Shown piece after piece: positions 8,347 to 48,945 of a stretch of DNA of 64,000 bases. The notes under the pieces were generated by a model. The model made no database searches, had not been told where the DNA came from, and saw only the letters and a program-made list of their open reading frames with translations. The stretch spans positions 124,001 to 188,000 of the forward strand of contig NZ_FNOK01000010.1 in NCBI RefSeq assembly GCF_900106995.1, in the 5' to 3' direction. Both the position numbers and the translations under genes were made by a program. The stretch comes from Saccharopolyspora shandongensis. Its GTDB lineage: Bacteria > Actinomycetota > Actinomycetes > Mycobacteriales > Pseudonocardiaceae. The first letter of the stretch is position 1; each line of letters starts with the position of its first letter.

Positions 8347-8385
8347 GGCATCTCCATCAGGTCGTGAGTCAGGCGGCGGGACGGT

Positions 8386-31285: not shown

Positions 31286-31669
31286 ATGGACGTCCCGAGC
31301 ACCCGGACGCCTGAGAACACGCCGGGCTCCGTTGCCGAGCCAGTCCAGGCGGGCACTGGGGCCGCCGACGCCGAGGAGCCGGCGCCGGTCGGCCCGCAGA
31401 CGCCGACCGAGGCGCTGGTGGCCGAGGTGTGGTGCGAGCTGCTGGAGCTCGACGCGGTCGACGTGACCGAGGACTTCTTCGTGCTGGGCGGGCATTCCAT
31501 GTTGGCGGCACAGGTGGTCTACCAACTCGCCGATCGGACGGGGATTCCCTTGGAGCTGGAGGTGTTCTTCGACCTGGGCACCGTGGCGGAGGTCGCCGCC
31601 GAGCTGGACCGCATCCGGTCCCTCGGGCCCGACCTCGACGAGTCCCGCATCTACGAGGAGGAACTGTGA
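31286..31669 (+). CDS. Free-standing carrier protein (T domain) on the assembly line
   Basis: This protein of about 127 aa has an unstructured Pro/Glu-rich N-terminus and then one carrier domain, with the phosphopantetheine Ser in FFVLGGHSMLAAQVV (near residue 70). ATG 31286 has AGGAGG 8 bases upstream. It lies between a protein ending in a C domain and one beginning with a docking domain plus C, with a 4-bp overlap to the latter. It therefore fills the position of a complete module but has no A domain and must be charged in trans. Candidate donors are the two A-T didomains through the Cys-type transferases encoded downstream. Confidence 0.9.
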   Translation: MDVPSTRTPENTPGSVAEPVQAGTGAADAEEPAPVGPQTPTEALVAEVWCELLELDAVDVTEDFFVLGGHSMLAAQVVYQLADRTGIPLELEVFFDLGTVAEVAAELDRIRSLGPDLDESRIYEEEL

Positions 31670-34600
31670 ACGCGCACGACCTCGTGCGGCGGCTGGACGA
31701 CCTCGGTGTCGGGCTGACCCTCGTCGACGACCGGATCCGGTATCGCAGCCGGGGTGCCCAGCTCGCGCCCGAGCTGGTCGCCGAGATGAAGCAGCACCGC
31801 GCCGAGCTCGTCGACATCCTGAACCGGCGCGCGCAGCTGCGGTGGCCGCCGGCTCGCGGCGACGCCGACGACCAGGAACGCCGGGGACCGCTCAGCAAGG
31901 CGCAGCAGACGCTCTGGGCGACGAACTACTTCCTGGAGGACGGCACCTACAACGTGTGCGGGGCCCTGCGGCTGCGCGGCGAGCTCGACGACGTCGCGTT
32001 CGCGGCCGCGCTGGAAGACGTGCACCGCAGGCACCCGTCGCTGCGCACCGTGTTCCCCGTTGCGCTGGGCGAGCCGGTTCAGCACGTCCTGCCAGCGGTC
32101 GCGACGCCGGTCGTGTTCCAGGACTTCTCGCACCAGCCGCCGGGAACGGCGCTCGACGAGTGCCTGCGGGAATGCGCGCGACTCGCGGATCGCAAGCTCC
32201 CGCTCGACACCGCGCCACCGGTGTCCATGTGCCGCTACCGGTTGGCCGAGGACGATCACGTCTTCGTCGTGGTGCTGCACCACGTCATCGCCGACGGCGT
32301 CTCGGTCGGCGTGCTGCTGGAAGACCTGGCCCAGTGCTACAACGCCCGGTTGGACGGCAGTCCCGTCGAGCCGTCCGCGGGTGACGTCGACATGCTCGAC
32401 TACGCCCGGTGGGAGCAGGAACACCTCCGCTACGCCGACCTCGGAACCGCCCGGCGGTACTGGAAGGAACGGCTCAGCGACGCCGCTTTCGGGCCGTTGC
32501 CCCTCCCGCCCCCGCGGGAGGAGTTGCGGGAAGATCACCGCGGCGGCGCGTACACGGCGATCATCGATGCGGCCACGACCGCGGCCGTGCGCCGGCTGGT
32601 GTCGGAGAGCCGCTCCAGCTCCTTCCTCGTCGTCTCGGCCGCCATCTCGTCGATGCTGTCCAGGTACACCGGCCGCGAGGACATGGTGGTCGGGATGCCG
32701 GTGGCCCGCCGCGACCGCGCCGGGCTGGAGAAGCTGGTCGGCCTGCTGCTCGACATGATCCCGGTCCGGCTCGAACTAGGTGGCGGCCCGAGCTTCGCCG
32801 ACCTCGTCAAGCGGACCAGGACCGCGGTCCTCGGCGCGATGGGCAATGCCGTGGTGCCGTCGGAGATCGTGCTCGACGAGCACGCGGCGCGCGGCGATGC
32901 GGCGGGCCGGGCGCTGTTCAACGTCATCGTCACCGACGCGGGCACCCAACTGCCGGAGCCGAGCTTCCGCGGTCTGGAGGCGAGCCACCTGGAGGTGGCG
33001 CAGGTCGGTGCCAAGTACGACCTCAACTTCCTGGTGCGCGACGACGGCGACACCCTCGCGATCGACGTCGAGTACGACCGGCGGGCGGTCGGCGAGCAGG
33101 ACGTGGCCGCCATGACATCGATGGTCCGCAGGATCCTCGCGCAGGGCGCGGCGAATCCGCAGCGCCGTGCGGCGGACCTGGCCGCGGCGCCGTTCGGCGA
33201 GATCGGAGCGGGCGCGGTGGGCGAGCACGCCGACCGGGTGCCAGGTGCGGACGAGTCGCTCGTCGCCCGGCTCGCCGCGATGGCGCAGACCCGCGGCGAC
33301 GCCGTCGCCGTCAGCCACGACGGCGCCACGCTGTCCTACCGGGAGCTTGCCGGTCTGGTCGACCGGATCGCCAGGGGACTCCGCCGGGAAGGCTTCGGCG
33401 CGGGCGACGTCGTGGCGATTTCGCTGCCGCGCGGCATCGACCTCGTCGCCGCCATCGTCGGCGTCATGGGCAGCGGCGCCGCGTGCCTGGTGCTCGACGA
33501 CTCCTGGCCGCAGGCCCGCGTCGACCGCGTCCTCGCCGACGCGGACGCGCGCCGGATCATCGCACCGGAACCGGATTCGGGCAGTGGGCGCGTCACCGTC
33601 GCGCAGTTGGCCGAACTCGGGGCGGCGGCCGCCCCGAGCGAGCCGGTGCCGGCGCAGGCCACCGCTTACGTGATCTACACATCGGGATCGACCGGTCGCC
33701 CCAAGGGCGTGCACGTGACCCACCACAACCTCCTGAGCCTGCTGGGCGCCACCGGCGACGCCTACGGCTTCGGCGCCGACGACACGTGGACGCTGTTCCA
33801 CGCCTGTTCCTTCGACGTCTCGATGTACGAGATGTTCGGCTGCCTGCTGCACGGCGGACGGCTGGTGGTGGTTCCACAGTGGACGACGCGGGAGCCGGAG
33901 GCGTTCGCCCAGCTGCTGCAACGGGAACGGGTCACCGTGCTGAGCCAGACGCCCTCGGCGCTGTCGGTGATGCTTCCGGCGATCGAGCGGAACCCGAGCG
34001 CGGCCGAGCACATCCGCTACGTCCTGTTCGCCGGAGAAGCGCTGGATCGCAGGCTGGTGGATCAGTGGTACCAGGCTCTTGGTGACCGGACCCAGCTGGT
34101 CAACATGTACGGCATCACCGAGACGACCGTGCACGCGTCGTGGCGGTGGCTCCGGCCGGACGACGCGCACACCGCGGAATCCGACATCGGCGGCCCGCTG
34201 CCGGGCACCTCGCTGCACATCCTGCACGACAACGGCACGTCGGTGTTCGACCGCTGCGTCGGGGAGATTTACGTCGGGGGCCCGCAGGTGAGCGCGGGCT
34301 ACCTCGGCAGGCCCCGGGAGACGGCCCTGCGGTTCGTGCCCGACCCGTTCGGCCCGATCCCGGGATCGCGGATGTACCGCTCCGGCGACCTCGCCCGGCG
34401 GAGCGGGACCGGCATGTCGTACCTGGGCCGGCGGGATTCGCAGGTGCAGGTCAACGGATTCCGCATCGAGCTGTCCGAGATCGAGGAGGCGCTGGCCGGT
34501 CAATCCGGTGTGGCCGCGGCCGCGGCCGTCACGACACCGGACGACGGCGGAACCCGGATCGTCGCGGTCGTCGTCGCCGAGGACGACGCGGACCTCTCCG

Positions 34601-37600
34601 CCGCCGAACTCATCCGGGGCGCGCGTGCCGTCCTACCCCGCTACATGATCCCGCACGCGGTCGCGGTCGTCGCGGAGCTGCCGCTGACCAACAACGGCAA
34701 GCTCGACCGCGCCGCGGTGGTTTCTGCGGCGACAGCCGCGATCACGTCGAGCCCGCGGGTTTCCACGCCACCGCAGGGCCCCGCGGAAACCCTCCTGCTG
34801 GAGCTGTTCCGGGAGGTGCTGGGCGACGATTCCGCCTCGACCGCCACCGATTTCCTGGAGCAGGGCGGCGATTCCATGCACGCGATCCACCTCGTGGGCC
34901 TCGCCCGCGAGCGGGGCCTCGCGTTCAGCGTCCGCGATGTCTACGAGGCCCCGGTGCTCACCGAACTCGCGGCGCGCGCAGTGCTGCGGGATCAGGACGC
35001 CACCGAGGCGTCGGCGGAGCGCGAGCCGTTCTCCCTGCTGCCCGCCGAGTTCGCCGGTTCGTTCCCCGACGATGTCGAGGACGCCTACCCGATGACGGCC
35101 ATGCAGACCGGCATGATCTACCACCAGGAGATCGCTCCCGGGGCGGGTGTCTACCACATCGTGCTCAGCTACCGGGTGCGCGGAACCATGGATCCGGTGG
35201 CGTTCCGCGCGGCGGCGCAGGCCGTCACGGACGCGCATCCGATCCTGCGGACCAGCTTCGACCTCGGCCACGCCCACGGACCGGTGCAGCGCGTGCACAC
35301 CGCCGTCGACGTCCCGGTGGAGTTCGAGGACCTCGCGAATCTCGCCCCCGCGGACCAGGAAGCCAGGATTCGGCAGGTCGTCGAGACCGAGACCGCGAGC
35401 TCCTTCGACCTCGCGCGGGTCCCGCTGTTCCGGCTCGTGGTGCTCACCCTGTCCGCGGACGACTACCAGCTGGTCTTCGCCCACAACCACGCCATCCTGG
35501 ACGGCTGGTCGGTGAACGTCTTCTTCGAGGACCTGCACGCCCAGTACCTCGACCGGCTGCACGGCGGTTCGGGGCGTCCGCTGCCGCGGCCGCGGACCAG
35601 GTTCGCGGACTACGTCGCGTTGGAGCAGCGAGCCCTGGCCGACCCCGCCGATGCGGACTTCTGGCGCGAACGGACTTCGCCGGAGGCCCACCTGATCGCC
35701 CCCGGCAGGTCCGGCGATCCCGTCATGCGGCAGCTGCACGAGGACCTGCCCGGAACGATCGACGAACTGCGGGCGGTCGCCGCGCAGGTGGGGGTGCCGC
35801 TCAAGGCCCTGCTGCTCGCCGCGCACATCCGCGTCGTCGCCTGGTTGACCGGCCACGACGACGTGGTGACCAGCCTCGTCTTCGCCTGCCGCCCGGAGGA
35901 GCAGGATTCCGACCGGATGCTGGGCCTGTTCCTCAACCAGCTCCCGGTGCGCGTCGAACTGGCCGACCAGAGCTGGGCCGAGTTGGCCCGGCAGGTGCAC
36001 CGCGGCGAGTCGGACATGATGCGGCATCGCTGGTACCCGCACGCCTCGATCCAGCAGGAGCACGGCTCGCGGCCCATCTTCGACTCCAGCTTCAACTTCA
36101 CCGACTACCACACGACGCGAAGGCTCGTGCGCGACGGCAGCCTGGAGGTCCTCGACAGCTACGAGCTCGAATCCACCCACTACGCGTTCGGCTCCAACTA
36201 CACGGTCGACGTCCGGACCCACGAGCTCCGGATGATCCTCGAGTACGACGCCTCGGCCGTGGCGCGCTCCACGGTCGCACTCGCCGCAGAGGCTCACCGC
36301 CGGATCTTGTCGGCGATCGTCGCCGATCCGGACAAGGCGTGCCGGAGCACGGCCCTGCCCGGAGTCGTCGACCTGGCTCGGTTGCTCGAGTCCGAGCTGG
36401 GCACGCCGGAACCGGATGAGCCGGCGCGGGAAACGGCGAACGGCGGGGCCGTGGTGCCGGAGTCGGCAGTGGACCAGAGCACGCCGGTCGAGCCGGGTCT
36501 CGCCCGCAGCGCGCGCAAGGCGTGGACCGAAGTGCTGGGCGTGACCGACTTCGGCGCGGACACCAGCTTCTTCGAGGTCGGTGGCTCGTCGTTGACGGCC
36601 ATGCGGGTGGTGAGCATGCTCCGCGCGCAGCACGGTCAGCTGTCGATGGGTGCGTTCATGGAGAACCCCACCGTCAACGGCACCGCACGGGCGCTCAGCG
36701 CGGCGTCGAATTCCACTGACGACGCCGTGGCGCCTGTGGCGGACGCGGACCCCGTCGGCGACGGGCCGCGCCGCTATCCCTTGTCGCGCGCCCAGCACCA
36801 GATGTGGTTGCTGGCGAGCAAGTTGCCGGAAGTGGCGCTGTTCGGCATGCCTGGCGCGCTCCGGGCAGAGGGGCCGCTGGACCTCGACGTGCTCAAGCGC
36901 ACGCTCGCCTCGCTGGTGCGGCGCCACGAAGCCCTCCGGACGCGCATCGTGAGCACGGACGACGGCCCGGAGCAGGTGGTCGAGCCGCAGGCCGACCTCG
37001 ACATCGAGGTCGTGGACCTGAGCGGGCACGCCGATCCGGTCGCCGACTGCGAGAAGCTGATGGCGGCCGCGGTGCGGGAGCCCATCGCGCTGGATCGCGC
37101 GCCGCTGATGCGCGCCATCGTCTACCGCATCGGCGCCCTGCGGCACGTGATCTACCTGAACATCCACCACGTGGTCTGCGACGGCTGGTCGCTGGAACTC
37201 CTGCTGGGAGAGGCCGCGCGGACCTACCGGGAGCTGGCGGCCGGCGCCGGAACCGCGGATCGGCCGGCCGCACCGGGCAGCGGGCGGCTGGCCCTGGCAC
37301 GGGCCGAGTGGGCGGAATCGCCGGCGGCGAGGCGACAACTCACCTACTGGGTCGACCGACTGACTCCGCCCTGGACCTCCCTCGCCGCCGGGCCTTCGAG
37401 CCGATTCGCCGCCGCGGATCAGGCCACGTTCGTCGAACGCCTCCGTTCCGCTTCCTGCCAACGCCGACTGGACCGCGCTGCGATCGAGCCGGTGCGCGAC
37501 GCCGCCCGTCGGCACGGCCTGACCGAATTCATGGTGGTGCTGACCGCCTTCGCGACGGCGTTGCGGTCCTGGAGCGGACAGGACGACATCCGCGTCGCCA

Positions 37601-38106
37601 CGATGCTGGCCAACCGCGCCCAGCCCGGCACGGAGGACGTCGTCGGGCTGGTCGCGAACACGGCCGTGCTGCGGATGCAGGTCGGCGCGGACGCCGATCC
37701 CGTCGACCTCAGCCGCGAAGTCCAGCGGGCGTGCATCGGCGCGTACGAGAACCAGGAGGTTCCGTTCGAGGACGTCCTGACCGCACTGGCGGAGCGCTAC
37801 CCCGCGGAGCAGCGGACCGGCCCGATGTACGAGGCCATGCTCGTCGTCCAGGAGGAGACCACGGCCGTCGCACCGGACGACGGGCTCGAGTTCTCGCCCT
37901 ACCGATCCGACCGCGGCGTCCTCACCACCTCGATCGCCGCGACGAACTGCGAATTCGTCCTCGGCGTGACGCCGGACGACGGTGCGCTGGTGCTGAACCT
38001 GCGCTACAAACCGGCGATCACCGACCGGGCGGTCGCGGTCGAACTCCTCGACGACATCGCGACCGCGTTGACGGCGACCGCCCGGGCGATGGGGGAACGC
38101 GCGTGA
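31666..38106 (+). CDS. NRPS 3: TubC docking-C-A-T-C-T-C, with an A-less module
   Basis: This is a protein of about 2146 aa. Residues 1-50 are a TubC-type N-terminal docking domain (LVRRLDDLGVGLTLVDDRI). Then come C1 (HHVIADGVS near 205), an A domain (YTSGSTGRPKGV near 671), T1 (LEQGGDSMHA near 1067), C2 (HNHAILDGWS near 1273), T2 (FFEVGGSSLTAM near 1639) and C3 (HHVVCDGWS near 1833). The A pocket reads D-V-Y-S-L-A-M-V-H-(K); the last part resembles threonine codes, but the substrate is unsure. The C2-T2 module has no A domain, so T2 must be charged in trans. The protein ends with a C domain and no thioesterase. GTG 31666 with GGAGG upstream overlaps the lone carrier gene. Confidence 0.93.
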   Translation: MNAHDLVRRLDDLGVGLTLVDDRIRYRSRGAQLAPELVAEMKQHRAELVDILNRRAQLRWPPARGDADDQERRGPLSKAQQTLWATNYFLEDGTYNVCGALRLRGELDDVAFAAALEDVHRRHPSLRTVFPVALGEPVQHVLPAVATPVVFQDFSHQPPGTALDECLRECARLADRKLPLDTAPPVSMCRYRLAEDDHVFVVVLHHVIADGVSVGVLLEDLAQCYNARLDGSPVEPSAGDVDMLDYARWEQEHLRYADLGTARRYWKERLSDAAFGPLPLPPPREELREDHRGGAYTAIIDAATTAAVRRLVSESRSSSFLVVSAAISSMLSRYTGREDMVVGMPVARRDRAGLEKLVGLLLDMIPVRLELGGGPSFADLVKRTRTAVLGAMGNAVVPSEIVLDEHAARGDAAGRALFNVIVTDAGTQLPEPSFRGLEASHLEVAQVGAKYDLNFLVRDDGDTLAIDVEYDRRAVGEQDVAAMTSMVRRILAQGAANPQRRAADLAAAPFGEIGAGAVGEHADRVPGADESLVARLAAMAQTRGDAVAVSHDGATLSYRELAGLVDRIARGLRREGFGAGDVVAISLPRGIDLVAAIVGVMGSGAACLVLDDSWPQARVDRVLADADARRIIAPEPDSGSGRVTVAQLAELGAAAAPSEPVPAQATAYVIYTSGSTGRPKGVHVTHHNLLSLLGATGDAYGFGADDTWTLFHACSFDVSMYEMFGCLLHGGRLVVVPQWTTREPEAFAQLLQRERVTVLSQTPSALSVMLPAIERNPSAAEHIRYVLFAGEALDRRLVDQWYQALGDRTQLVNMYGITETTVHASWRWLRPDDAHTAESDIGGPLPGTSLHILHDNGTSVFDRCVGEIYVGGPQVSAGYLGRPRETALRFVPDPFGPIPGSRMYRSGDLARRSGTGMSYLGRRDSQVQVNGFRIELSEIEEALAGQSGVAAAAAVTTPDDGGTRIVAVVVAEDDADLSAAELIRGARAVLPRYMIPHAVAVVAELPLTNNGKLDRAAVVSAATAAITSSPRVSTPPQGPAETLLLELFREVLGDDSASTATDFLEQGGDSMHAIHLVGLARERGLAFSVRDVYEAPVLTELAARAVLRDQDATEASAEREPFSLLPAEFAGSFPDDVEDAYPMTAMQTGMIYHQEIAPGAGVYHIVLSYRVRGTMDPVAFRAAAQAVTDAHPILRTSFDLGHAHGPVQRVHTAVDVPVEFEDLANLAPADQEARIRQVVETETASSFDLARVPLFRLVVLTLSADDYQLVFAHNHAILDGWSVNVFFEDLHAQYLDRLHGGSGRPLPRPRTRFADYVALEQRALADPADADFWRERTSPEAHLIAPGRSGDPVMRQLHEDLPGTIDELRAVAAQVGVPLKALLLAAHIRVVAWLTGHDDVVTSLVFACRPEEQDSDRMLGLFLNQLPVRVELADQSWAELARQVHRGESDMMRHRWYPHASIQQEHGSRPIFDSSFNFTDYHTTRRLVRDGSLEVLDSYELESTHYAFGSNYTVDVRTHELRMILEYDASAVARSTVALAAEAHRRILSAIVADPDKACRSTALPGVVDLARLLESELGTPEPDEPARETANGGAVVPESAVDQSTPVEPGLARSARKAWTEVLGVTDFGADTSFFEVGGSSLTAMRVVSMLRAQHGQLSMGAFMENPTVNGTARALSAASNSTDDAVAPVADADPVGDGPRRYPLSRAQHQMWLLASKLPEVALFGMPGALRAEGPLDLDVLKRTLASLVRRHEALRTRIVSTDDGPEQVVEPQADLDIEVVDLSGHADPVADCEKLMAAAVREPIALDRAPLMRAIVYRIGALRHVIYLNIHHVVCDGWSLELLLGEAARTYRELAAGAGTADRPAAPGSGRLALARAEWAESPAARRQLTYWVDRLTPPWTSLAAGPSSRFAAADQATFVERLRSASCQRRLDRAAIEPVRDAARRHGLTEFMVVLTAFATALRSWSGQDDIRVATMLANRAQPGTEDVVGLVANTAVLRMQVGADADPVDLSREVQRACIGAYENQEVPFEDVLTALAERYPAEQRTGPMYEAMLVVQEETTAVAPDDGLEFSPYRSDRGVLTTSIAATNCEFVLGVTPDDGALVLNLRYKPAITDRAVAVELLDDIATALTATARAMGERA

Positions 38107-40511
38107 CACCTTGCCCGGTCCACCGCCTTCGCTACCGGCGCCTGTGGCGGCTCCCCTCGGTCCGCACGATCGGAACGACGGCGCTCGTGACGGTGGCCGC
38201 GGTTGCGCTCGGCGCCGTCGTCGCGCCGCTGTGGGCGCCGTTGGTGGTGCTCGCCGTCGGAGCGGCCGTGATCATCGCCGAAGTTCGGCGGCACCGCGCT
38301 CGCATCGCGATCGAGCTGCGGCTGGTGCGCGCTCTGGTCCGCTCGGGTGGTGGTTGCCCCGGCGACGTCGAGGTGCCGGGCCTCGGCGCCGAGGTGCGGA
38401 TGGAGGCGATGCCCAACGGCGTCACGAGGATCGAGGGGGCCTCGTTCCTGGATGCCGTGCGGGCGCTGGGTTTTGCGATGGGCTCGGATCGCGCCTTCCA
38501 CCTCGACCTGCTGCGGCGAACGGCGAAGGGGCGTCTTTCGGAGGTTTGGGGGCGCACGGCGTTGCCGGTGGACGAGCGCTACCGGCCGCTGGGACTGGCC
38601 CGGGCGGCCGAGGCGGCGACCGCGTCCCTGGAGGCACCGGAGCGAGACGTCCTGACGGCCTTCGCGGCGGGCGTCAATGCGTCGATGCGGCATCACGGCT
38701 CGCCGTTCGAGGCCCGGTTCCTCTCGTACCGGCCGGAGCCGTGGACGGCAGCGGACAGCGTGTTGATCGCGTTGTTCCTGTTCCATTCGCTGTCCTGGAA
38801 CGAGCAGCCGAAGCGCGCCGATGCCGTGATCCGGCGGGTGTTCCCGGACGACGTCGCCGATTTCTTCCTGCCGGGTGCGGGGCGGGAGCCGTCCATCCCG
38901 GAAGGCCTGGGGCGCCTGCGCGCGCCCGAGCCGGTTCCCGACGTCGTCGCGCTCGACGGGGCGGTGCCCGGATCCAACTGCTGGGTCCGGGGCGGCCCCG
39001 ATGCGCGGCACCCGCTCCTGGCCTGCGACCTCCACTTGCCGCTGACCATGCCGAACCTGCTGTACGAGGTGGATCTGCGCTGGCCGGGGCAGCGAGTGCG
39101 CGGCCTGGCGGCGCCCGGTCTGCCGGTGGTGCTGACCGGGCGCAACGAGCACGTCGCGTGGGGAGTGACGAACCTCAGCGCCGACGTCCTCGACCTGGTC
39201 CCGGCCGCCGACGCCGACGGCTCGGCCGGCACGACCACCGGAACCGAACGGATCCGAGTCCGGGGCCGTGCGGATGCGCAACTCGACGTCACCCGCGTCG
39301 GCACCATGCCCGTGTCCCGGAATCCCTTGCTGGGCGAGAAAATCGCCATCCGGTGGACCGGTCATGATCTCCGCAGCTGCGACCTGAAGTTCCAGCGGCT
39401 GGCCCAGGCATCCAGCGTCGCGGAGAGCATCGAGCTGCTCGAACAGGCGCAGGGCATCGCGCTCAACGTGCTCGTCGCGGACGATTCGGGACGCATGGCG
39501 CACCTGGCGACCGGGCTGCTTCCACGGCGACCGGCCGATCGCCGCGGCGCCGCGGACGGGTACCTCACCGGAGCGCAGCGGCCACGCCTGGTCGATCCGC
39601 CATCGGGGATCCTGGTTTCGGCGAACGACGCGGCGCTGACCGAGCGCACCTTCCAGATCGGCTACGACCTCGACCCCGGCCACCGCGCCCGCCGGTTGCG
39701 GCGACTGCTGGCCGAGGCCGCGGACCCCGATCCGGCCGCCATGCGCGCGATGCAGCACGACACGGCCGCCGAGTTGTACCTGCCGTACCGCGATCTCGCG
39801 GTGTCGGCGCTCGCCGGCCGCGGCGACCGCGTCGCAGACCTGCTCGCGTCCTGGGACGGCCGGGCCGATGCCGCTTCCCAGGCGTTCGGCGTCCTCGTGC
39901 GGCTGCGCGAGATCATCGCCCAGCAGGTCCTCGGCGCTTACCTGGCGGTGTGCCGGGAACACGACCCGGACTTCCGGTACCCGTTCCGCGCGGCCGATGG
40001 GCCGTTGCTCGCCATCCTCCAAGCCGAGGACCCGTCGCTGCTACCGCCCGGGGAGGAAGCCGGCGGCTGGGCGGGTTTCGTCGCGCGCTGCGTGGATCGA
40101 GCCGTGGCCGAACTCGGGGGAGCAGCGGGCCTGCCGACTTGGGGCGAACTCAACTCGGTGGGCCTGGACCATCCGCTAGCGGGGCTTGCTCCGTGGGCAG
40201 GCCCGCTGCTCGGGGTCGCGGCGCGACCGCAATCCGGGGCGCTGCACAGCGTTCGGACGTGCGTTCCGGGATTCGCCGCGGTCGGTCGCGCCGTTTTGTC
40301 GCCCGGGGCGGGCGGTTTCGCGGAATTCGAGCTACCCGGCGGACAGTCGGGCCACCCGTTGCGCGCGCAGTTCGACGACCGCCACCGCGAATGGTCGAGC
40401 ACCGGTTCGCGCGCCGCCCCCGCGATGCGCGGCGGATGTGCATTCGTGTTGCGGCCGGCCGGATCGCCGAGTTCCGCAGAGCCAGTGGACGTGGGAGGCC
40501 GCGATGAGTGA
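38103..40511 (+). CDS. Membrane-anchored penicillin acylase family hydrolase (PvdQ-like role)
   Basis: This 802-aa Ntn hydrolase belongs to the S45 penicillin acylase family. Two hydrophobic segments lie at about 20-60, before any catalytic part, so it should be membrane-anchored. Autocleavage would fall before Ser291 in VPGSNCWVRGG, giving an alpha part of 290 residues and a beta chain of about 512 residues whose N-terminal Ser is the nucleophile. Further family residues include GRNEHVAWGVTN and the Asn in LVSANDAAL. Such enzymes cut amides and remove fatty acyl chains from peptides, as PvdQ does in pyoverdine maturation. Its GTG overlaps the NRPS 3 stop by 4 bp, tying it to the FAAL-started peptide. 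It may remove the acyl group after export, which could also protect the producer. Confidence 0.88.
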   Translation: MTPCPVHRLRYRRLWRLPSVRTIGTTALVTVAAVALGAVVAPLWAPLVVLAVGAAVIIAEVRRHRARIAIELRLVRALVRSGGGCPGDVEVPGLGAEVRMEAMPNGVTRIEGASFLDAVRALGFAMGSDRAFHLDLLRRTAKGRLSEVWGRTALPVDERYRPLGLARAAEAATASLEAPERDVLTAFAAGVNASMRHHGSPFEARFLSYRPEPWTAADSVLIALFLFHSLSWNEQPKRADAVIRRVFPDDVADFFLPGAGREPSIPEGLGRLRAPEPVPDVVALDGAVPGSNCWVRGGPDARHPLLACDLHLPLTMPNLLYEVDLRWPGQRVRGLAAPGLPVVLTGRNEHVAWGVTNLSADVLDLVPAADADGSAGTTTGTERIRVRGRADAQLDVTRVGTMPVSRNPLLGEKIAIRWTGHDLRSCDLKFQRLAQASSVAESIELLEQAQGIALNVLVADDSGRMAHLATGLLPRRPADRRGAADGYLTGAQRPRLVDPPSGILVSANDAALTERTFQIGYDLDPGHRARRLRRLLAEAADPDPAAMRAMQHDTAAELYLPYRDLAVSALAGRGDRVADLLASWDGRADAASQAFGVLVRLREIIAQQVLGAYLAVCREHDPDFRYPFRAADGPLLAILQAEDPSLLPPGEEAGGWAGFVARCVDRAVAELGGAAGLPTWGELNSVGLDHPLAGLAPWAGPLLGVAARPQSGALHSVRTCVPGFAAVGRAVLSPGAGGFAEFELPGGQSGHPLRAQFDDRHREWSSTGSRAAPAMRGGCAFVLRPAGSPSSAEPVDVGGRDE

Positions 40512-41345: not shown

Positions 41346-42155
41346 ATGCCGGATCCCGGATCATGGCTGCTGAGGCCGCCGCCCGAGGACGCGCAGACCC
41401 TGCTGTTCGGCTTCCCGTACGCCGGCGGTGGCGCCTCCCTGTACCGGCAATGGCCGAATCAGATCGGGGACGCCTGGTTCGGCGCGCTCCAGCCGCCGGG
41501 CCGGGAGCACCGCTTCCGGGAACCACCTGTGCGCACCCACGCCGAGTTCACCGAGTCGCTGGTGGAGTACCTGGCCCGCTTCGCCGACCGCGAGTTCGCC
41601 TTCTTCGGCCACTGCGGCGGCGTACCGCTGGCGCTGTCCACCACGCTGGCGCTGCAGGATCGCGGAATGCCGCTGCCCGCACGGATTTTCGCGTCGGGTT
41701 GGGGCCCACCGCACGAGCGGCTGTACGGCAGGCTCAACTTCGTCGACCTGGCCACCGCCGACCTCGGCGCAGAGGTCAGCGCGTTGTTCGACAAGCTCGG
41801 AGTGCCGGTGCGCGAAGACTTCGTCGAGGTGGCCGCCCAGGTCCTGCGCGTCGACTTGGAGCTGCACCGGCCCCACCTGCACGACGCGACGCGCTTCCTG
41901 CCGGCACCGGTGACGGTGCTCGGCTGGACCGACGACGACGTCGTCCCGCCTGCGGAGGTGTGCCGCGGCTGGGAGGAAGTCGCCGAGACCCGCTACGAGG
42001 TCCTCGACGGCGAGCACTTCGCGTTCACCCGCTGCCCGCCGCCCCTCGTCGACCTGCTGACGCGTGACATGACCGACGTGCGACCGCCTCCGTCGACGCG
42101 TGCCGATGCCGTACCGAACAACCCACTCGAAACGACGCCGGAGGTAATCCCATGA
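41346..42155 (+). CDS. TE-fold protein with Cys nucleophile, candidate aminoacyl shuttle 1
   Basis: This 269-aa protein of the type II thioesterase fold has Cys in place of Ser at the nucleophile elbow (Cys90 in FFGHCGGVPLAL; the codon at 41613 is TGC). The acid (GWTDDDVV) and His (DGEHFAF) are kept. In SyrC and CmaE the same Cys change marks aminoacyltransferases that move an amino acid from one carrier to another. Its stop overlaps the start of the second A-T didomain gene by 4 bp (ATGA), which fits moving that unit's amino acid to another carrier. A plain hydrolase role cannot be excluded. Confidence 0.82.
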   Translation: MPDPGSWLLRPPPEDAQTLLFGFPYAGGGASLYRQWPNQIGDAWFGALQPPGREHRFREPPVRTHAEFTESLVEYLARFADREFAFFGHCGGVPLALSTTLALQDRGMPLPARIFASGWGPPHERLYGRLNFVDLATADLGAEVSALFDKLGVPVREDFVEVAAQVLRVDLELHRPHLHDATRFLPAPVTVLGWTDDDVVPPAEVCRGWEEVAETRYEVLDGEHFAFTRCPPPLVDLLTRDMTDVRPPPSTRADAVPNNPLETTPEVIP

Positions 42156-43954
42156 GCTCATCCGACGGATCGCCGCAACTCGGCCCGACCATTCACGAAC
42201 TGGTGGAGGGCTGGGCGGCCGCTACGCCGTCCGCGCCCGCGGTGCGGGACGCCGACGACACGATGACCTACCGCGAGCTCAACGAACGAGCCGACCGGTT
42301 GGCCACCGTGCTGCGGGGCAGCGGGGTAGGGCTGGAGAGCCGGGTCGGCGTCGCGATTCCTCGTTCGGCGGAGGCGATCGTGGCATTCCTCGGCGTGTTG
42401 AAGGCGGGCTGCGGCTATGTGCCGCTGGACCCCGAATACCCGGCGGAGCGCCTCGACTTCATCCTCGCCGACTCCGGCGTCGAGGCGCTGGTCACCGTTT
42501 CTTCGGTCGAACTCGCGCACCCCGAAGGAGTGCCGGTGATCGTCCTGGACGGCGACGAGCCGGCCCCGGCGTCGGCCCCGGCTCCGGTGCCGGTGACCGC
42601 GCAGCAGTGCGCGTACGTCATCTACACCTCCGGCTCGACCGGCACCCCGAAGGGCGTGGTGGTCGAGCACCGCAACGTGGTCGCGCTGGTGAGCAACGAC
42701 GACCGGCTGGCCGTCGGCCAGGGCGAGACGGTGGCGCACTTCGCGCCGACGGCCTTCGACGCATCGGTCTTCGAGATCTGGGGCGCGCTGTGCCGCGGTG
42801 CGCAGGTCGCGATCCTGCCCGGGGCACAGGTGTCCATTGAGGAACTCGGGCGCCAGCTGCGTGAACTGCAACCGGACTGGTTGTTCCTCACCACGGGGCT
42901 GTTCCACCTGCTGGCCGACTTCGACCTGACCGCCCTGAAACCGGTCGGGCGCCTGCTGACCGGCGGCGACGTGCTCAACCCGGACCACGTGGCGGCGGCC
43001 GCCGCCACGACGTCGGTGTACGCCGCCTACGGGCCGACCGAGACCACCGTCTTCACCACGCTGCACTCGCCGTCGCCGGGCCTGCAGGGCAGCCGGGTAC
43101 CGCTCGGACGCGGCCTGGACGGCGTGGGGGTGTACGTCCTCGACGAACGGCTCGAACAGGTCCCGCACGGCGAGATCGGCGAGCTGTACATCGGGGGCAG
43201 CGGGCTTTCCCGCGGCTACCACGACAGGCCCGGGCTGACCGCCGAACGCTTCCTGCCCGATCCGTTCGCCCACGTACCCGGGGCGCGCATGTACCGCACC
43301 GGCGACCTCGGTCGGGCACTGCCCGACGGCGAGCTGGAATTCCACGGGCGCATCGACCGGCAGGTGAAGGTGCGCGGATTCCGCATCGAGCTGGGCGAGA
43401 TCGAGAACGTCTTGCTGAGCGCACCGGACGTGTCGGCCGCGGCGGTGGTGGCGGTTCCGGGGCTGGACGGCGACAAGCGGCTTGCCGCGTACGTCTCGTC
43501 GGGCGCAGATCTCGCCGTTTCCGAGCTGCGCGCCTGGACCGCCGCCCGGTTGCCGGGCCACGCCGTCCCGGCCACCTTCATCGTCCTGGATTCGCTGCCG
43601 CTGGACGCCAACGGGAAGCTGGATCGCCGATCGCTGCCCGCGGCTTGGGCCAGCCGGGCCGCCGTGGAGGGACTTCCGCCGTACGTGGCGCCCGGCAGCG
43701 AGATCGAACGGATCATCGCCACCGCTTGGGCCGAGGCCCTGGAGCTCGACGAGGTCGGGGCGCGGGACGACTTCTTCGCCCTGGGCGGGGATTCGCTGCG
43801 CAGCGTCGCCGTGCTCGAACGGCTCCGCGCGATCGGGGTCGGGTTCACCGCCGCCCAGTTCTTCAGCCATCCGACGGTGGTCGAGTTGGCGGCCCAGTAC
43901 GAAGCCGACGCCACCCCGTCCGACGCGGCGAGCACCGCCGCGTCGACTTCCTGA
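42152..43954 (+). CDS. Free-standing NRPS A-T didomain (loading unit 2)
   Basis: This 600-aa protein has an adenylation domain (about 1-500) and a carrier (about 520-590). A3 is YTSGSTGTPKGVV, A5 AAYGPTETTV, A7 YRTGDLG, A8 GRIDRQVKVRGFRIELGEIE, and the A10 Lys is in ANGKLDR. The carrier Ser is in FFALGGDSLRSVA near 546. The pocket reads D-A-F-F-L-G-A-V-F-(K), closest to codes for branched aliphatic residues such as Val or Ile. There is no C domain. It lies between a Cys-type shuttle gene and three P450 genes, so its amino acid is probably oxidised on a carrier before it enters the peptide. Confidence 0.9.
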   Translation: MSSSDGSPQLGPTIHELVEGWAAATPSAPAVRDADDTMTYRELNERADRLATVLRGSGVGLESRVGVAIPRSAEAIVAFLGVLKAGCGYVPLDPEYPAERLDFILADSGVEALVTVSSVELAHPEGVPVIVLDGDEPAPASAPAPVPVTAQQCAYVIYTSGSTGTPKGVVVEHRNVVALVSNDDRLAVGQGETVAHFAPTAFDASVFEIWGALCRGAQVAILPGAQVSIEELGRQLRELQPDWLFLTTGLFHLLADFDLTALKPVGRLLTGGDVLNPDHVAAAAATTSVYAAYGPTETTVFTTLHSPSPGLQGSRVPLGRGLDGVGVYVLDERLEQVPHGEIGELYIGGSGLSRGYHDRPGLTAERFLPDPFAHVPGARMYRTGDLGRALPDGELEFHGRIDRQVKVRGFRIELGEIENVLLSAPDVSAAAVVAVPGLDGDKRLAAYVSSGADLAVSELRAWTAARLPGHAVPATFIVLDSLPLDANGKLDRRSLPAAWASRAAVEGLPPYVAPGSEIERIIATAWAEALELDEVGARDDFFALGGDSLRSVAVLERLRAIGVGFTAAQFFSHPTVVELAAQYEADATPSDAASTAASTS

Positions 43955-44035: not shown

Positions 44036-45274
44036 ATGCGCATCACCGCACCCGATTCCGCCGAGTCCGTTCCGCTCGACGAGATCGACCTGTACGCCCC
44101 CGAGCGTTACCGCGACGGCAGCCAGCACGCGGCCTGGCAGACCCTTCGCCGCCAGGCACCGGTCTGGTGGCACGAACGGCCCGGCCAGCCGGGTTTCTGG
44201 TCGGTGACGAGGTACGCGGACTGCGAACGCGTCCTCAAGGAGCACCGCACGTTCAGCTCGGCATCGGGCACGGTGCTCGGCTCGATCGAAACCGGTGACC
44301 CCGCGGGCGGGCGGACCATCTCGCTGATGGATCCACCCGAGCACACCGGGCTGCGCACCGCGTCGATGCGGTCGTTCAGCCACTCGGTCCTGCGCGGGCG
44401 GACCGACCGGATCCAGGAGCAGGTGCGCCGCCTGGTGCAACCGTGCCTCGACGGCGAGCAGGACTTCGCCCACCTGATGCGCAGGTTGCCGATGGCGATC
44501 ACCGGAGAACTGATCGGCATCCCGGAGGAGCACTGGGATCCGATCGCGTTCTGGACCGCGGCCGGGATCTCACCGGAGGATCCCGCGTTCGCCGTCGGGC
44601 CCACCACGGCGCACACGCTGCGCCGCGCCCACCACGAGCTGTTCGCGCGGTTCTCCGAGCTGATCGCGCACCGCCGCCGCCACCCGGGCACAGATCTGAT
44701 CAGCGCGCTGCTGGAGCTGCGGCCCGACGGGCGGCGGATGGAAGACGGCGACGTGCTGCTCAACTGCTACAGCTTCATGGCCGGCGCCAACTCCACCACG
44801 CCGCACGTCGCCGGCCAGACGCTGCTCGCGCTGATCGAGCACCCGTCGTGGTGGGAGTGGCTGCGCGAGGATCCGGAGCGGACAACGGCGGTGGTGGAGG
44901 AAGGTGTGCGGTGGACCGCCACACCGCACCACCTGGTCCGCCGCGCGTTGCGGGACACCGAGATCAGCGGCGTCCGGATCTCCGCCGGCGACTGGGTCTG
45001 CGCCTGGGTCGGCTCGGCGCATCGCGACGAGGCGGTGTTCGACGACCCCTACCGCCTGGATCCGCAGCGCCCGCCCAACCAGCACATCGGGTTCGGCATC
45101 GGCCCGCACTACTGCATCGGCGCGCCGCTGTCGCGGATCGCGTTGCGGGCCTTGTTCGAAGAGCTCGTCTCGAAGTTCGAACAGATCGAGTTGGCCGGCC
45201 CCGTCACGCACCTGACGTCGAACTGGGTCAACGGGCTGTCGTCCATGCCGGTGCTCGGAAAACCGCGGCGGTGA
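44036..45274 (+). CDS. Cytochrome P450, first of a paralogous trio
   Basis: This 412-aa P450 has the I-helix YSFMAGANSTTPHV, ExxR in EEGVRW, and the haem loop HIGFGIGPHYCIGAPLS. Its N-terminus (EIDLYAPERYRDGSQHAAW) and the NCYSF stretch before the I-helix are shared with the next P450, and more weakly with the third, showing common descent by duplication. It follows loading unit 2 by 81 bp and GGGGACC precedes the ATG. The likely substrate is a carrier-bound amino acid. Electrons may come from the three-iron ferredoxin at 49049. Confidence 0.9.
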   Translation: MRITAPDSAESVPLDEIDLYAPERYRDGSQHAAWQTLRRQAPVWWHERPGQPGFWSVTRYADCERVLKEHRTFSSASGTVLGSIETGDPAGGRTISLMDPPEHTGLRTASMRSFSHSVLRGRTDRIQEQVRRLVQPCLDGEQDFAHLMRRLPMAITGELIGIPEEHWDPIAFWTAAGISPEDPAFAVGPTTAHTLRRAHHELFARFSELIAHRRRHPGTDLISALLELRPDGRRMEDGDVLLNCYSFMAGANSTTPHVAGQTLLALIEHPSWWEWLREDPERTTAVVEEGVRWTATPHHLVRRALRDTEISGVRISAGDWVCAWVGSAHRDEAVFDDPYRLDPQRPPNQHIGFGIGPHYCIGAPLSRIALRALFEELVSKFEQIELAGPVTHLTSNWVNGLSSMPVLGKPRR

Positions 45275-45327: not shown

Positions 45328-46584
45328 ATGCAACTGACCGCCTCGCCGCCGACCGCGCCGGTACCGCTGGACAAGATCGACCTCTACGACCCCGGCCGTT
45401 ACCAGCACGGCGAACAGCACGCGTCGTGGCACGCCCTGCGGACGACGGCTCCGGTGTGGGCGCAGCACACCCCGGAGGGCGACAGGTTCTGGTCGGTGAC
45501 GACCTACCGCGATGTTTCCCGGGTCCTCATGGACGACCGGAGGTTCAGCTCGGCGCACGGCACGATCCTCGCCGTCGCACGGGGGGACAGCGCGGGCGGT
45601 AAGACGATCAACCTGATGGATCAGCCCGACCACGCGTCGGTCCGGCTGCCCACCATGCGCACCATGGCGACCCGGCTGGTCCGGGAACGCCGCGAACGGG
45701 TGCGCGGTCACCTCCGCCGGATCCTGGACGGGCATCTCGATCACGGCGAACCGGTCGATTTCGCCGAGCTGATGCTGCAACTGCCGATGGCCGGGGTCGG
45801 CGAGATCATCGGCATCCCCGTCCGGCACTGGTCGTCCATCGTCAGGTGGGCGATGGCCGGTGTCGCGCCGGCGGATCCGGAGTACGCGACGGGCTCCGAG
45901 GAGGACACCCTCCGGCACGCCCACCACGAACTGATGGCCCTGTTCTCCGACCTGATCGGGCAACGGCGCCGCCAGCGCCGGGACGACCTGATCTCGGTGC
46001 TGCTGGACCTCGACTTCGGCGGCCGCCGGATGAACGAGCACGAGGTGCTGCTCAACTGCTACAGCTTCGCGATGGGTGCCATCACGACGACACCGCAGGT
46101 CGCCTCGCACATGGTGCTCGCATTCGCCGATCAGCCGCAGGCCTGGCGCACCCTCCGGGCGAATCCGGACCTCATCCCGAGCGCGGTGGAGGAGGCACTG
46201 CGGTGGGCCTCGCCGACCAACCACCTGATGCGCCGCACCCTCACCGAGGTGCAGATCGGCGATGTCCGGCTGGACGAAGGGGAACTGGTCTGCGCCTGGG
46301 TCGGTTCGGCCAACCGGGACGAACAGGTCTTCGCCGACCCGTACGCCTTCGACCCGGCGCGCACACCCAATCCGCACCTCGCCTTCGGCGTCGGCGCGCA
46401 CCGCTGCATCGGCGGACCGGCGGCGCAGGTGGCGCTCGCGGTGCTGCTCGAAGAACTGATCGCGCGGTGCGACCGGTTCGAGCTGGCGGGCGAGGTGACC
46501 CACCTGTACTCCAACTTCATCAACGGGATCACGCACCTGCCGGTGCGGGTTCGCACGAGTGATCGGGAGGTGGCGCTGCCATGA
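45328..46584 (+). CDS. Cytochrome P450, second of a paralogous trio
   Basis: This 418-aa P450 has the I-helix YSFAMGAITTTPQV, ExxR in EEALRW, and the haem loop HLAFGVGAHRCIGGPAAQ. The N-terminus KIDLYDPGRYQHGEQHASW matches its upstream neighbour closely. A GGAGG site precedes ATG 45328. Its stop overlaps the ATG of the lone carrier protein by 4 bp (ATGA), so it should be made with the carrier that may hold its substrate. It may act at a different carbon or oxidation level from its paralogues. Confidence 0.9.
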   Translation: MQLTASPPTAPVPLDKIDLYDPGRYQHGEQHASWHALRTTAPVWAQHTPEGDRFWSVTTYRDVSRVLMDDRRFSSAHGTILAVARGDSAGGKTINLMDQPDHASVRLPTMRTMATRLVRERRERVRGHLRRILDGHLDHGEPVDFAELMLQLPMAGVGEIIGIPVRHWSSIVRWAMAGVAPADPEYATGSEEDTLRHAHHELMALFSDLIGQRRRQRRDDLISVLLDLDFGGRRMNEHEVLLNCYSFAMGAITTTPQVASHMVLAFADQPQAWRTLRANPDLIPSAVEEALRWASPTNHLMRRTLTEVQIGDVRLDEGELVCAWVGSANRDEQVFADPYAFDPARTPNPHLAFGVGAHRCIGGPAAQVALAVLLEELIARCDRFELAGEVTHLYSNFINGITHLPVRVRTSDREVALP

Positions 46585-46910
46585 CCCACGTGGAGCACGA
46601 ATCCGGCGCGCCCGCAACGGAACCGGCGGTAGCGCGCGCCGACAAGAACTTGTCGACCGAGTACATCCCGCCCCGCACCGACCTGGAACGGCGGCTGGCG
46701 GACATGTGGGCCGAACGCCTGAAGGTCCGGCCGGTCGGCGTGGACGACGACTTCTTCGAACTCGGCGGCCATTCGCTGGCCGCCGCCGAACTACTGGTCG
46801 ACATCGCGTCGGCGACCGGCGTCGAGGTCTCCGCGCAGACCCTGTTCCTCCAGCCCAGCATCGCCGAGCTGGCCGCGGCGCTGGAAACCGGGACGGGAGC
46901 GCAAGGATGA
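46581..46910 (+). CDS. Free-standing carrier protein between P450 genes
   Basis: This 109-aa protein has a disordered N-terminus of about 25 residues and one carrier domain with the phosphopantetheine Ser in FFELGGHSLAAAELL near 62. It overlaps the P450 genes on both sides by 4 bp. Its place within the P450 trio suggests it carries the amino acid during oxidation, like CmaD in coronamic acid formation, which receives its residue from an A-T protein through CmaE. The two Cys-type TE-fold proteins in the same operon would load and unload it. Confidence 0.92.
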   Translation: MTHVEHESGAPATEPAVARADKNLSTEYIPPRTDLERRLADMWAERLKVRPVGVDDDFFELGGHSLAAAELLVDIASATGVEVSAQTLFLQPSIAELAAALETGTGAQG

Positions 46911-48169
46911 GGCACTCGCACCCGACCGACCCGCACGCCATCGACCTCGACGCGGTGGACCTGCGGGATCCGGCGCTGTACCGCAACGGCGACCCGCATG
47001 CGGTGTGGCACGCGATGCGGCACCGGGACCCGGTGCGCTGGCAACCTATCGGGCAGGGATCCGGTTTCTGGTCCGTGACCCGGTACCACGACATCGTTGC
47101 GGTGTTGCGCGATCACGCCACCTTCACCTCTGAGGGCGGCACGTTGCTGACGCTGCTCGGGCAGCCCGACCCGGCCAGCCGGCAGCAGCTGTCGGCCACC
47201 GACCCGCCGCGCCACACCGAGATGCGGGCGCCGTTGCAGCGCCTGCTGGTCGGCCGCACGGCGGACCGGCACCGCGAACGGGTGCGGGCCGAGGCCCGGA
47301 GACTGCTGGCGCCCGCTCTCGGCGGTGAGCCGTTCGACATCGCGGTCGCGGTGCACCGCCTACCGGTCGTCATGTTCGGGACGTTGATGGATCTGCCGTC
47401 CGCCGACTGGCCCAGGCTGACCGAGCTGGCCGAGATGGCGGTCGCCCCCGACGACCCGGTCCACCAGCTCTCCTCCGGCGCGGCGGCGACCCAGCACCGG
47501 GCGCACCGGGAGCTGTTCGCCTACTTCCAGGACGCCGCGAGCCGGCGGCAGAAGGCGCCCGGCGAGGACCTCCTCAGCACCCTGCTCACGATGACGGTGG
47601 AGGGCGCCCCGCTCGGCCGCGGCGCGGTGATGGCCAACTGCTACCTGCTGTTGATCGGCTCCACCGTGACGGTGCCGGAAGTGCCGAAGGCCGCGCTGGC
47701 CGAGCTGATCCGGTCCGGTCGCTACGCCGACTGGGCGGAGCACCCGGAACTGCTGGAAAGTGGTGTGGAGGAGGCGTTGCGCTGGGCTTCCCCGGCCAAC
47801 CACGTGCTGCGCTACGCGACGCGACCGACCGAACTGCGCGGGGTGCCGATCGCCGAGGGCGACGCGGTCGTCGTCTGGTACGGCTCGGCCAACCGCGACG
47901 AGGAGGTCTTCGACGATCCGTACCTGTTCGACGTGCGTCGCCACCCCAACCGGCACCTCAGCTTCGGCGCGGGTCCGCACTACTGCGTGGGATTCGCCAT
48001 CGCGCGGATGACCCTGCAGGTGCTGTTCGAGGAGATGTTCGCCGCGTTCGAGGACTTCCAACTGGCCGGCCCGGTGGAGCACGTGGCGTCGAACTTCGTC
48101 GCCGGGATCACCAGCATGCCGGTGGTGGGCAAACCCCGGCCGGGCCACCAACGGGGGGCCGCGCGGTGA
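46907..48169 (+). CDS. Cytochrome P450, third of a paralogous trio
   Basis: This 420-aa P450 has the I-helix-region YLLLIGSTVTVPEV, ExxR in EEALRW, and the haem loop HLSFGAGPHYCVGFAIA. It shares the N-terminal DLRDPALYRNGDPHAVW pattern with the two upstream P450s but has diverged more from them. ATG 46907 overlaps the carrier stop (ATGA), and its own stop overlaps the following GTG by 4 bp. Three related P450s and a private carrier suggest several oxidations of one residue. Confidence 0.9.
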   Translation: MRHSHPTDPHAIDLDAVDLRDPALYRNGDPHAVWHAMRHRDPVRWQPIGQGSGFWSVTRYHDIVAVLRDHATFTSEGGTLLTLLGQPDPASRQQLSATDPPRHTEMRAPLQRLLVGRTADRHRERVRAEARRLLAPALGGEPFDIAVAVHRLPVVMFGTLMDLPSADWPRLTELAEMAVAPDDPVHQLSSGAAATQHRAHRELFAYFQDAASRRQKAPGEDLLSTLLTMTVEGAPLGRGAVMANCYLLLIGSTVTVPEVPKAALAELIRSGRYADWAEHPELLESGVEEALRWASPANHVLRYATRPTELRGVPIAEGDAVVVWYGSANRDEEVFDDPYLFDVRRHPNRHLSFGAGPHYCVGFAIARMTLQVLFEEMFAAFEDFQLAGPVEHVASNFVAGITSMPVVGKPRPGHQRGAAR

Positions 48170-48945
48170 GCGCCGACGTCCCGGTCGCAACGCCCCGGAA
48201 AGCCCGGCCACCGCGCTGGTTCCTGCGCCCGCCGGGGAGCGAGGCCGCGGCCCGGCTGTTCTGCCTGCCTTATTCCGGCTGCGGGGCCAGCATGTACCGG
48301 AACTGGCCTGCGATGGTGGAGGGCCTGGAGATCTGCCCGATCCAGCTGCCCGGCAGGGAGAACCGGCTCCGGGAACGTCCACATGAGACCTACCAGCAGC
48401 TGGCCGCCGAGGTCATCGATGCGATCGGACCGCACCTGGACCGGCCGTTCGGGTTCTTCGGCCACTGCGGCTCGGCGCTGTCCTCGTACGAGATCGCGGT
48501 GCAGCTGGCGCGCAGCGGCGGGCCCGTGCCGACCTGCGTGTTCGTTTCCTCGCAGGTGGCACCGCAGGAAGGACCGTTCGGCTCCTACCTGGAAATGGAC
48601 GACGTCGAGCTGGCCGAGGAAGTCCGGCGGCTGATCCGCGAGTTGGGCGGTGTCGAGCCGCGGGAAGATCTGGTGCGGCTGTCCCTGCGGGTGATGCGCG
48701 CCGATGTGGACGCCAACGCGAAATACCGGATGGCGGAGGCGGTGCGGCTACCCTGCCGCGTCAGCGCCATCGGCTGGAAGGACGACGTGAACATCCGGCC
48801 GGACCAGATGACCGGGTGGCGCGACTGCGGGCGAACCGTCTTCCGGCTGCTGGGCGGCAGCCACTTCACCTTCCTGCAAGCACCGGCCGATCTCCGCGAG
48901 GTCCTGCTCGCGGACATGGACCTGCCGCTCACCGCTGCTCCGTGA
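48166..48945 (+). CDS. TE-fold protein with Cys nucleophile, candidate aminoacyl shuttle 2
   Basis: This 259-aa protein is the second thioesterase-fold protein with Cys at the nucleophile elbow (Cys101 in FFGHCGSALSSYE). LFCLPYSGCGASMY and GGSHFTFL correspond to the family's N-terminal and His motifs. Its GTG overlaps the P450 stop. Placed after the lone carrier and the last P450, it would suit moving the finished amino acid from that carrier to an A-less carrier on the assembly line. Family comparison with SyrC and CmaE supports transfer; the direction is inferred from gene order only. Confidence 0.82.
   Translation: MSADVPVATPRKARPPRWFLRPPGSEAAARLFCLPYSGCGASMYRNWPAMVEGLEICPIQLPGRENRLRERPHETYQQLAAEVIDAIGPHLDRPFGFFGHCGSALSSYEIAVQLARSGGPVPTCVFVSSQVAPQEGPFGSYLEMDDVELAEEVRRLIRELGGVEPREDLVRLSLRVMRADVDANAKYRMAEAVRLPCRVSAIGWKDDVNIRPDQMTGWRDCGRTVFRLLGGSHFTFLQAPADLREVLLADMDLPLTAAP

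Follow-up and report, generated by a model that had tools for sequence, protein, structure and literature searches.

A proposed two-line aminoacyl shuttle with one off-line adenylation domain and two Cys-type thioesterase-fold proteins in an NRPS locus of Saccharopolyspora shandongensis

How is a nonribosomal peptide synthetase (NRPS) supplied at positions where the assembly line has a carrier (T) domain and no adenylation (A) domain to load it? This question is raised by a locus of the soil actinomycete Saccharopolyspora shandongensis in a stretch of 64,000 nucleotides (contig NZ_FNOK01000010.1, positions 124,001 to 188,000; hereafter the window, to which unqualified coordinates refer), where two such positions occur: the lone carrier T1 at 31286 and a condensation (C)-T module inside NRPS 3. 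A sequence-only reading of the window had matched them with two A-T didomains devoid of a C domain (42152-43954 on the plus strand and 6577-8346 on the minus strand) and with two Cys-type thioesterase (TE)-fold proteins at 41346 and 48166 (here Cys1 and Cys2), and suggested that amino acids are activated off-line, oxidised on a carrier and then passed on. Domain calls with Pfam and custom hidden Markov models, supplemented by NCBIfam for NRPS 1, recover all these elements at the coordinates it gave. Its off-line oxidation scheme stands in part. In its favour are the pair of A-deficient sites, a suitable gene set, and two Cys proteins whose clade goes with P450s and free A-T didomains; the pairing with two A-T didomains is not supported.

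We propose instead a scheme with a single off-line A domain, to which we give about an even chance. The A domain of A-T 42152 would serve two donor carriers, namely its own T domain and an A-stripped lone carrier at 46581, each of which would be oxidised by its own P450s. Line 1 would thus consist of the A-T carrier, P450a, P450b and Cys1, and line 2 of the carrier at 46581, P450c, a ferredoxin and Cys2. In each line the Cys protein would accept the oxidised aminoacyl group on its cysteine and hand it to a main-line carrier whose own module has no means of loading it, with T1 and the NRPS 3 C-T as the receiving carriers and one site per Cys protein. We infer the aminoacyl transfer, the pairing of shuttles with sites, the substrate and the charging of 46581 (whether in trans by the A domain or through a Cys protein) from sequence. 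The lone T at 46581, which the sequence-only reading had not cast as a donor, is the more likely second donor.

Both receiving carriers retain the GxS serine. T1 starts with an ATG behind an AGGAGG box and is in frame with NRPS 2 past a single TGA (31268-31270); its counterpart in Actinophytocola algeriensis is fused into an A-T-C-T protein and bears the acidic tail YEGEL, against YEEEL in the window. As this tail faces the NRPS 3 dock, T1 is an in-line carrier in a module that has no A domain, and its sister in the carrier tree is the A. algeriensis C-T carrier (branch support 100/97). Two A-deficient sites are present in each of the four clusters in which they were counted, i.e. those of the window, A. 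algeriensis, P. rishiriensis and Streptomyces SID14436, and each of these clusters also has one off-line A domain, two donor carriers and two Cys proteins. In the window and A. algeriensis the sites are a C-T, in one case split into separate C and T, plus a further C-T; in P. rishiriensis and SID14436 they are a C-T plus a C-A-T with a dead A domain (at 130744 and 62945 there, respectively), which lacks the P-loop PKG (the A3 lysine motif) and A8 and has Arg in place of the A10 Lys. The T domain at 69323 of SID14436 is weak, being detected in one scan and missed in another. Dead A domains are also called in other clusters with Cys proteins, namely those of the metagenome-assembled genome (MAG) AC_7 (two), Actinomadura formosensis, Asanoa, Micromonospora chokoriensis, M. 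lutea and Wenjunlia; these provisional calls come from a single alignment and use those three motifs again.

Cys1 and Cys2 both match PF00975 (59.2 and 91.5 bits against a curated cut-off of 26.4) with complete Cys-Asp-His triads and the nucleophile motifs GHC90GG and GHC101GS, respectively; neither has the Ser in GHSxG of hydrolytic RifR-type enzymes. SyrC and CmaE, which shuttle aminoacyl groups, use Cys. Across the best 66 of 84 matches to Cys1 the triad is near-invariant (Cys90 66/66, Asp197 66/66, His224 64/65), the weakest matches beyond these mostly reading GHS; the 120 matches listed for Cys2, out of 1446, show the same constancy (Cys101 120/120, Asp207 119/120, His233 118/120). The two proteins share 34% identity with each other, and the closest named match to Cys2 among those listed is from S. 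shandongensis (97%). NCBIfam returned no family for either at E 0.001. The solved structures that match best in sequence carry the deposited names Thioesterase and RifR; the aligned ones read GHS, and one entry GHA. Of the seven TE matches in the organism's own genome, only Cys1 and Cys2 have GHC. Cys1 is rare: of the 390 genomes of the family, 12 contain it at E 1e-50, as do 3 of 394 sampled genomes of the class, its own genome being counted in both. In a tree of 130 rows, 73 Cys rows are split from 57 Ser rows by a 100/100 branch, with the sampling limited in that the Ser rows were drawn mostly from the same search as the Cys rows. Relatives of Cys1 form a clade of 24 rows (100/100) and Cys2 falls inside a set of 33 (99/94), leaving 11 further Cys rows and a third subclade of five.

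The Cys proteins are linked to free A-T didomains beyond chance. We compared gene neighbourhoods (flanks of up to ~10 kb) for 77 loci from the Cys1 family scan, of which 38 have a Cys-type TE and 39 a Ser-type or other TE. A free A-T didomain is found in the flanks of 31/38 Cys loci as opposed to 3/39 of the others, an A-T together with a P450 in 27/38 as opposed to none of 39, and an A-less C-T in 10/38 as opposed to none of 39. In the window itself the A-T didomain directly adjoins Cys1.

The specificity of A-T 42152 looks branched-chain-like by its code; such codes are motif readings on GrsA numbering, and the automatic position-278 column is shifted for several domains. The T domain of this didomain belongs to a set of 17 rows (97/86) that also holds the A-T carriers of clusters with Cys1 alone, together with four other carriers. 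For the lone carrier at 46581 the closest non-orthologous carriers are the T domains of A-T didomains from Cys2-type clusters (60% for locus L045 and 52% for L029), and eight such lone carriers lie within a 13-row set (96/88) beside the T domains of five Cys2-type A-T didomains, in a tree of 82 columns in which many forks are weak and from which the M. marina lone carrier was left out. Its grouping with carriers from the A-T didomains of one-shuttle clusters makes 46581 look like a former A-T didomain that is now without its A domain. The P450s partition similarly: P450a and P450b group with P450s of Cys1-only clusters (27 rows, 100/100) and P450c falls in a 17-row set (95/93) drawn mostly from Cys2-type clusters. 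Since the carrier and P450 trees agree, two once-complete lines, each with an A-T, a P450 and a Cys protein, seem to have merged, with line 2 losing its A domain.

The seven genes for Cys1, the A-T didomain, P450a, P450b, the lone T, P450c and Cys2 recur together in nine genomes: those of the window, A. algeriensis, P. rishiriensis, Streptomyces SID14436, Asanoa ishikariensis, M. chokoriensis, MAG AC_7, M. lutea and M. marina (working labels of the eight others G001, G002, G003, G005, G007, G009, G011 and G012). Four-base coding overlaps, typical of co-translated genes, join P450b, the lone T, P450c and Cys2 on the one hand and Cys1 and the A-T on the other, and are shared by several genes of the plus-strand NRPS locus. 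P450c and Cys2 adjoin in six of the nine genomes, and M. lutea and M. marina have Cys1 on a different contig. A. algeriensis holds the entire cluster, i.e. 14 open reading frames from P450mid to the ferredoxin at 61-84% identity. The ferredoxin was matched in 5/8 of the other cassette genomes and is fused to Cys2 in four of its 120 listed relatives (P0115, P0117, P0118 and P0183, two of them checked); these fusions unite a proposed shuttle and a likely P450 redox partner in one protein. The carbamoyltransferase next to the ferredoxin adjoins P450c/Cys2 relatives in loci of Streptomyces tendae and Actinokineospora, which hints that a P450c-derived hydroxyl may be carbamoylated in some clusters; we regard it as accessory because it is absent within 80 kb around the A. 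algeriensis cluster. A trio of A-T, P450c-like and Cys2-like genes also occurs on plasmids of S. tendae, S. cattleyicolor and S. clavuligerus (L149, L150 and L151), followed in S. tendae by a carbamoyltransferase.

The left didomain at 6577-8346 was rejected as a donor on the evidence of A. algeriensis, which has both A-less sites and both Cys proteins with only the right A-T: the 80 kb around its cluster contain no counterpart of the left A-T, its P450, the aminotransferase or the KAS III-like gene. The assignment of one A-T to each line is accordingly not supported, and a scheme in which each of the didomains at 6577 and 42152 supplies its own Cys protein and, through it, a single A-less carrier is very improbable in our view, even though both didomains have intact core motifs and each adjoins a P450. 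The best-scoring match of the left A-T in the A. algeriensis genome (39%) is the ortholog of A-T 42152. Close relatives were found in two of eight genomes searched, in M. chokoriensis (64%), on a different contig from the cassette, and in Asanoa (49%), beside a Cys protein of the third subclade; more relatives (48-54%) are at L024, L027, L038 and L042, and four of the five rows of that subclade come from loci with left-A-T relatives. The left P450 lies in a six-row set (100/100) apart from those of P450a/b and P450c; the left pair groups with lines whose loci mostly contain the third Cys subclade. Both genes belong to a separate minus-strand operon (225-11759) with PALP, ornithine-cyclodeaminase-like, ATP-grasp, diaminobutyrate aminotransferase (above its curated cut-off), cupin and KAS III-like genes, which looks like a separate small biosynthetic cluster; the PALP and ornithine-cyclodeaminase-like pair presumably resembles SbnA/SbnB, of diaminopropionate synthesis.

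The main rival of the parallel arrangement is a serial relay, possible though doubtful in our view, with one residue type and three carriers in a row: Cys1 would take the residue, once oxidised by P450a/b, off the A-T carrier and onto 46581, P450c would oxidise it again and Cys2 would deliver it to both sites. The carrier at 46581, having no A domain of its own, does need charging by something; CmaE is reported to charge the stand-alone T CmaD from the A-T CmaA (PMC8748450), and the Actinokineospora cluster suggests that one Cys protein may serve two sites. Set against this, Cys1 is the sole Cys protein in 80 kb of Kutzneria and Kibdelosporangium, near an A-less C-T, for which reason its native acceptor looks like a main-line carrier. 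P. rishiriensis and SID14436 had seemed to possess a single acceptor each, which spoke for the relay; this point was dropped in view of the dead-A C-A-T in each. Direct charging of the A-less carriers in trans by A-T 42152, with the Cys proteins confined to editing, is improbable: it was put forward for BpdD once deletion of bpd1, a TEII homologue, had proved to be without effect (PMC10956176), yet nine genomes retain two distinct Cys subfamilies, each accompanied by its own P450s, and a Ser-type type II thioesterase (TEII) is already present for editing. Very improbable, too, is a purely hydrolytic role, in which the Cys proteins release the oxidised free amino acid for reactivation by an A domain. 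Release has been described for NikP2 and proposed for KtzF (PMC4147253) and for the discrete TEs of polyoxypeptin (PMC3943440); however, the sites proposed to receive the residue lack an A domain that could reactivate it as a free amino acid, the ordinary Ser TEII at 40504 is already at hand, and the clade retains its Cys.

Several observations weigh against our parallel scheme, beginning with the reported release by NikP2 and the ineffective deletion of bpd1, which is LgnA-like. The site counts are settled in four of the nine cassette genomes, with M. lutea, M. marina, Asanoa, M. chokoriensis and MAG AC_7 outside. Embleya, Wenjunlia and Actinokineospora each have one nearby Cys protein and two A-deficient sites, the first two with two A-T didomains as well, and Kutzneria, Kibdelosporangium and Streptomyces C10-9-1 have one Cys protein and one site (76-80 kb covered in each of the six). 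Sites per Cys protein, tried as a discriminator, proved not to be constant across clusters; because the ratio varies outside the two-shuttle clusters, the count fits one shuttle per site without proving it. A comparison of C domains aimed at pairing shuttles with sites found close matches for those of NRPS 1-3 only in the A. algeriensis orthologs. The proposed lines are also not always compact: Cys2 adjoins Cys1 in Asanoa, and lies about 19 kb from P450c in M. chokoriensis and 84 kb in AC_7, on the same contig. Two Cys2-type loci, L032 and L039, sit in the separate 11-row Cys set. As for the lone carrier, after the matches at 60% and 52% ordinary module carriers match it at 51%, and the eight lone carriers are joined weakly (89/42). 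In the neighbourhood comparison, lone T genes are no mark of Cys loci (13/38 as opposed to 27/39 of the others), and the 38 Cys loci span 35 genomes, three of which give two loci each.

Precedents for carrier-to-carrier transfer exist, here cited from passages of open-licence articles: the TEII LgnA and the SyrC-like CysB move an aminoacyl group from carrier to carrier, as seen by protein mass spectrometry (PMC8748450, PMC7966384). LgnA, of legonmycin, shares with the window proteins the TEII fold and moves its aminoacyl group from an A-T to an A-less C-T, as proposed for them; it differs in its Ser77 nucleophile and in being a single shuttle, and the passages mention no P450 acting on the donor carrier (PMC8748450). 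The WS9326A system comes close, with two free A-T didomains (WS22 and WS23), the TEII shuttles WS5 and WS20 and an A-less C-T in module 7 (PMC8748450, PMC9943842); it has two A domains where the window has one, and its passages mention neither a lone donor carrier nor a P450 trio. The WS20-like End_25645 has Ser79 (PMC13320435) in place of the Cys of the window proteins. Two traits of the TEII-type aminoacyl shuttles (LgnA, WS20, RthD) recur in the window: a neighbouring free A-T didomain, and acceptor sites in the cluster whose A domain is absent or dead. As LgnA and End_25645 are Ser enzymes, the Cys clade is seemingly a different branch from the published TEII shuttles, which by analogy it is proposed to resemble in its working. 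With SyrC, CmaE and CysB the likeness would be one of function; the window proteins are PF00975 type II thioesterases. These shuttles operate between carriers around an off-line residue, CmaE charging a lone T (PMC8748450), and CysB fills a CysK module whose A domain lacks the A10 lysine (PMC7966384), as we propose for the dead-A modules of P. rishiriensis and SID14436. In polyoxypeptin, compared by description only, PlyQ-PlyR-PlyS are a carrier, a P450 and a TE in the order of 46581-48945, with one free A (PlyC) and two free carriers; there, in contrast, an A domain is assigned in all six modules and the TEs are proposed to hydrolyse (PMC3943440 and its Table 1). Rotihibin and enduracidin have one A-T/TEII line each (PMC8552735, PMC13320435). 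Thus, one- and two-shuttle systems are already known, and an A-stripped donor carrier combined with a pair of Cys-type TEII shuttles is apparently new: no such system is described in the open-licence literature as covered by titles, the beginnings of abstracts and passages, and that literature yielded neither a product nor a published twin of the cluster.

The locus thereby offers a testable case of how an NRPS acquires oxidised residues, through a portable cassette that brings along loader, oxidases, carriers and shuttles of its own, and its acceptor modules form a graded series from a dead A domain to none. It also marks a Cys-type TEII-fold clade whose neighbourhood predicts transfer over hydrolysis, so that proteins annotated as "thioesterases" would have to be re-read; if transfer holds true, the cassette would lend itself naturally to installing oxidised residues, which may be branched-chain-derived, in peptides. 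More tentatively, and with appreciable doubt, we picture a three-tier carrier system fed from a single A domain: its own carrier, an A-stripped carrier charged only from carrier to carrier, and two A-deficient sites, with two old Cys-type TEII subfamilies and three carrier-bound P450 oxidations in between. The ferredoxin tie in some relatives would couple oxidation to hand-over, and the cassette would move between unrelated NRPS backbones whose A domains then decay, from C-A-T via a dead A to C-T and finally to split C and T.

Table 1. Coordinates of the genes and domains discussed (positions in the window)
Feature	Position	Strand	Description
NRPS 1	21493..28131	+	FAAL-T-C-A-T-C; Pfam, NCBIfam, custom HMMs; 66% ortholog in A. 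algeriensis
NRPS 2	28136..31270	+	A-T-C; Pfam; A-T-C-T fusion in A. algeriensis
Lone carrier T1	31286..31669	+	A-deficient acceptor site 1; acidic C-tail YEEEL toward NRPS 3 dock
NRPS 3	31666..38106	+	TubC_N-like dock-C-A-T-C-T-C; C-T is A-deficient acceptor site 2
Penicillin-amidase-type acylase	38103..40511 (start approximate)	+	PF01804; 61% ortholog in A. algeriensis
Ordinary Ser-type type II thioesterase, GHSMG	40504..41298 (start approximate)	+	
Cys1	41346..42155	+	TEII-fold, triad Cys90-Asp197-His224; proposed line 1 aminoacyl shuttle
A-T didomain	42152..43954	+	Sole off-line A domain of the cassette; core motifs intact
P450a, line 1 (proposed)	44036..45274	+	
P450b, line 1 (proposed)	45328..46584	+	
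Lone carrier T_P	46581..46910	+	Proposed second donor carrier; linker YIPPRTDLE present
P450c, line 2 (proposed)	46907..48169	+	
Cys2	48166..48945	+	TEII-fold, triad Cys101-Asp207-His233; proposed line 2 aminoacyl shuttle
Small ferredoxin adjoining Cys2	49049..49270	+	Fer4_13, Fer4_15
Carbamoyltransferase	49302..51281	+	Pfam; accessory
Left A-T didomain	6577..8346	-	Judged not part of the system
NRPS 4	51372-57314	-	C-A-T-C-A

Regarding the backbone (Table 1), the TubC_N-like dock of NRPS 3 scores 23.3 bits, under the cut-off of 26, and the end of this protein (about 36800-38106) is a C domain with HHVVCDG followed by neither a T nor a TE, as is also the case in A. algeriensis. The FAAL at the start of NRPS 1 together with the penicillin-amidase-type acylase suggests an N-acylated prodrug peptide that is deacylated later. 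The code of the first A domain of NRPS 4 reads as Ser; its last A domain has lost the P-loop, A8 and A10 and is truncated with no T downstream, for which reason NRPS 4 was weighed as a third A-deficient site. It has no counterpart within 80 kb around the A. algeriensis cluster. An NRPS 4-like C-A-T-C-dead A followed by a separate T is seen in Asanoa (L128, about 1990-8149).

Between the left operon and the NRPS locus (12873-20099, plus strand) are genes for a DUF885 protein, a sulfatase-modifying-factor-like protein and an M14 carboxypeptidase with a MAM-like domain. To the right of the window (L138), a gene with a GGGTAGW start, which we take to resemble tryptophan halogenases, lies at about +3.8 kb, and another NRPS, C-A-T-C, at about +13.7 kb.

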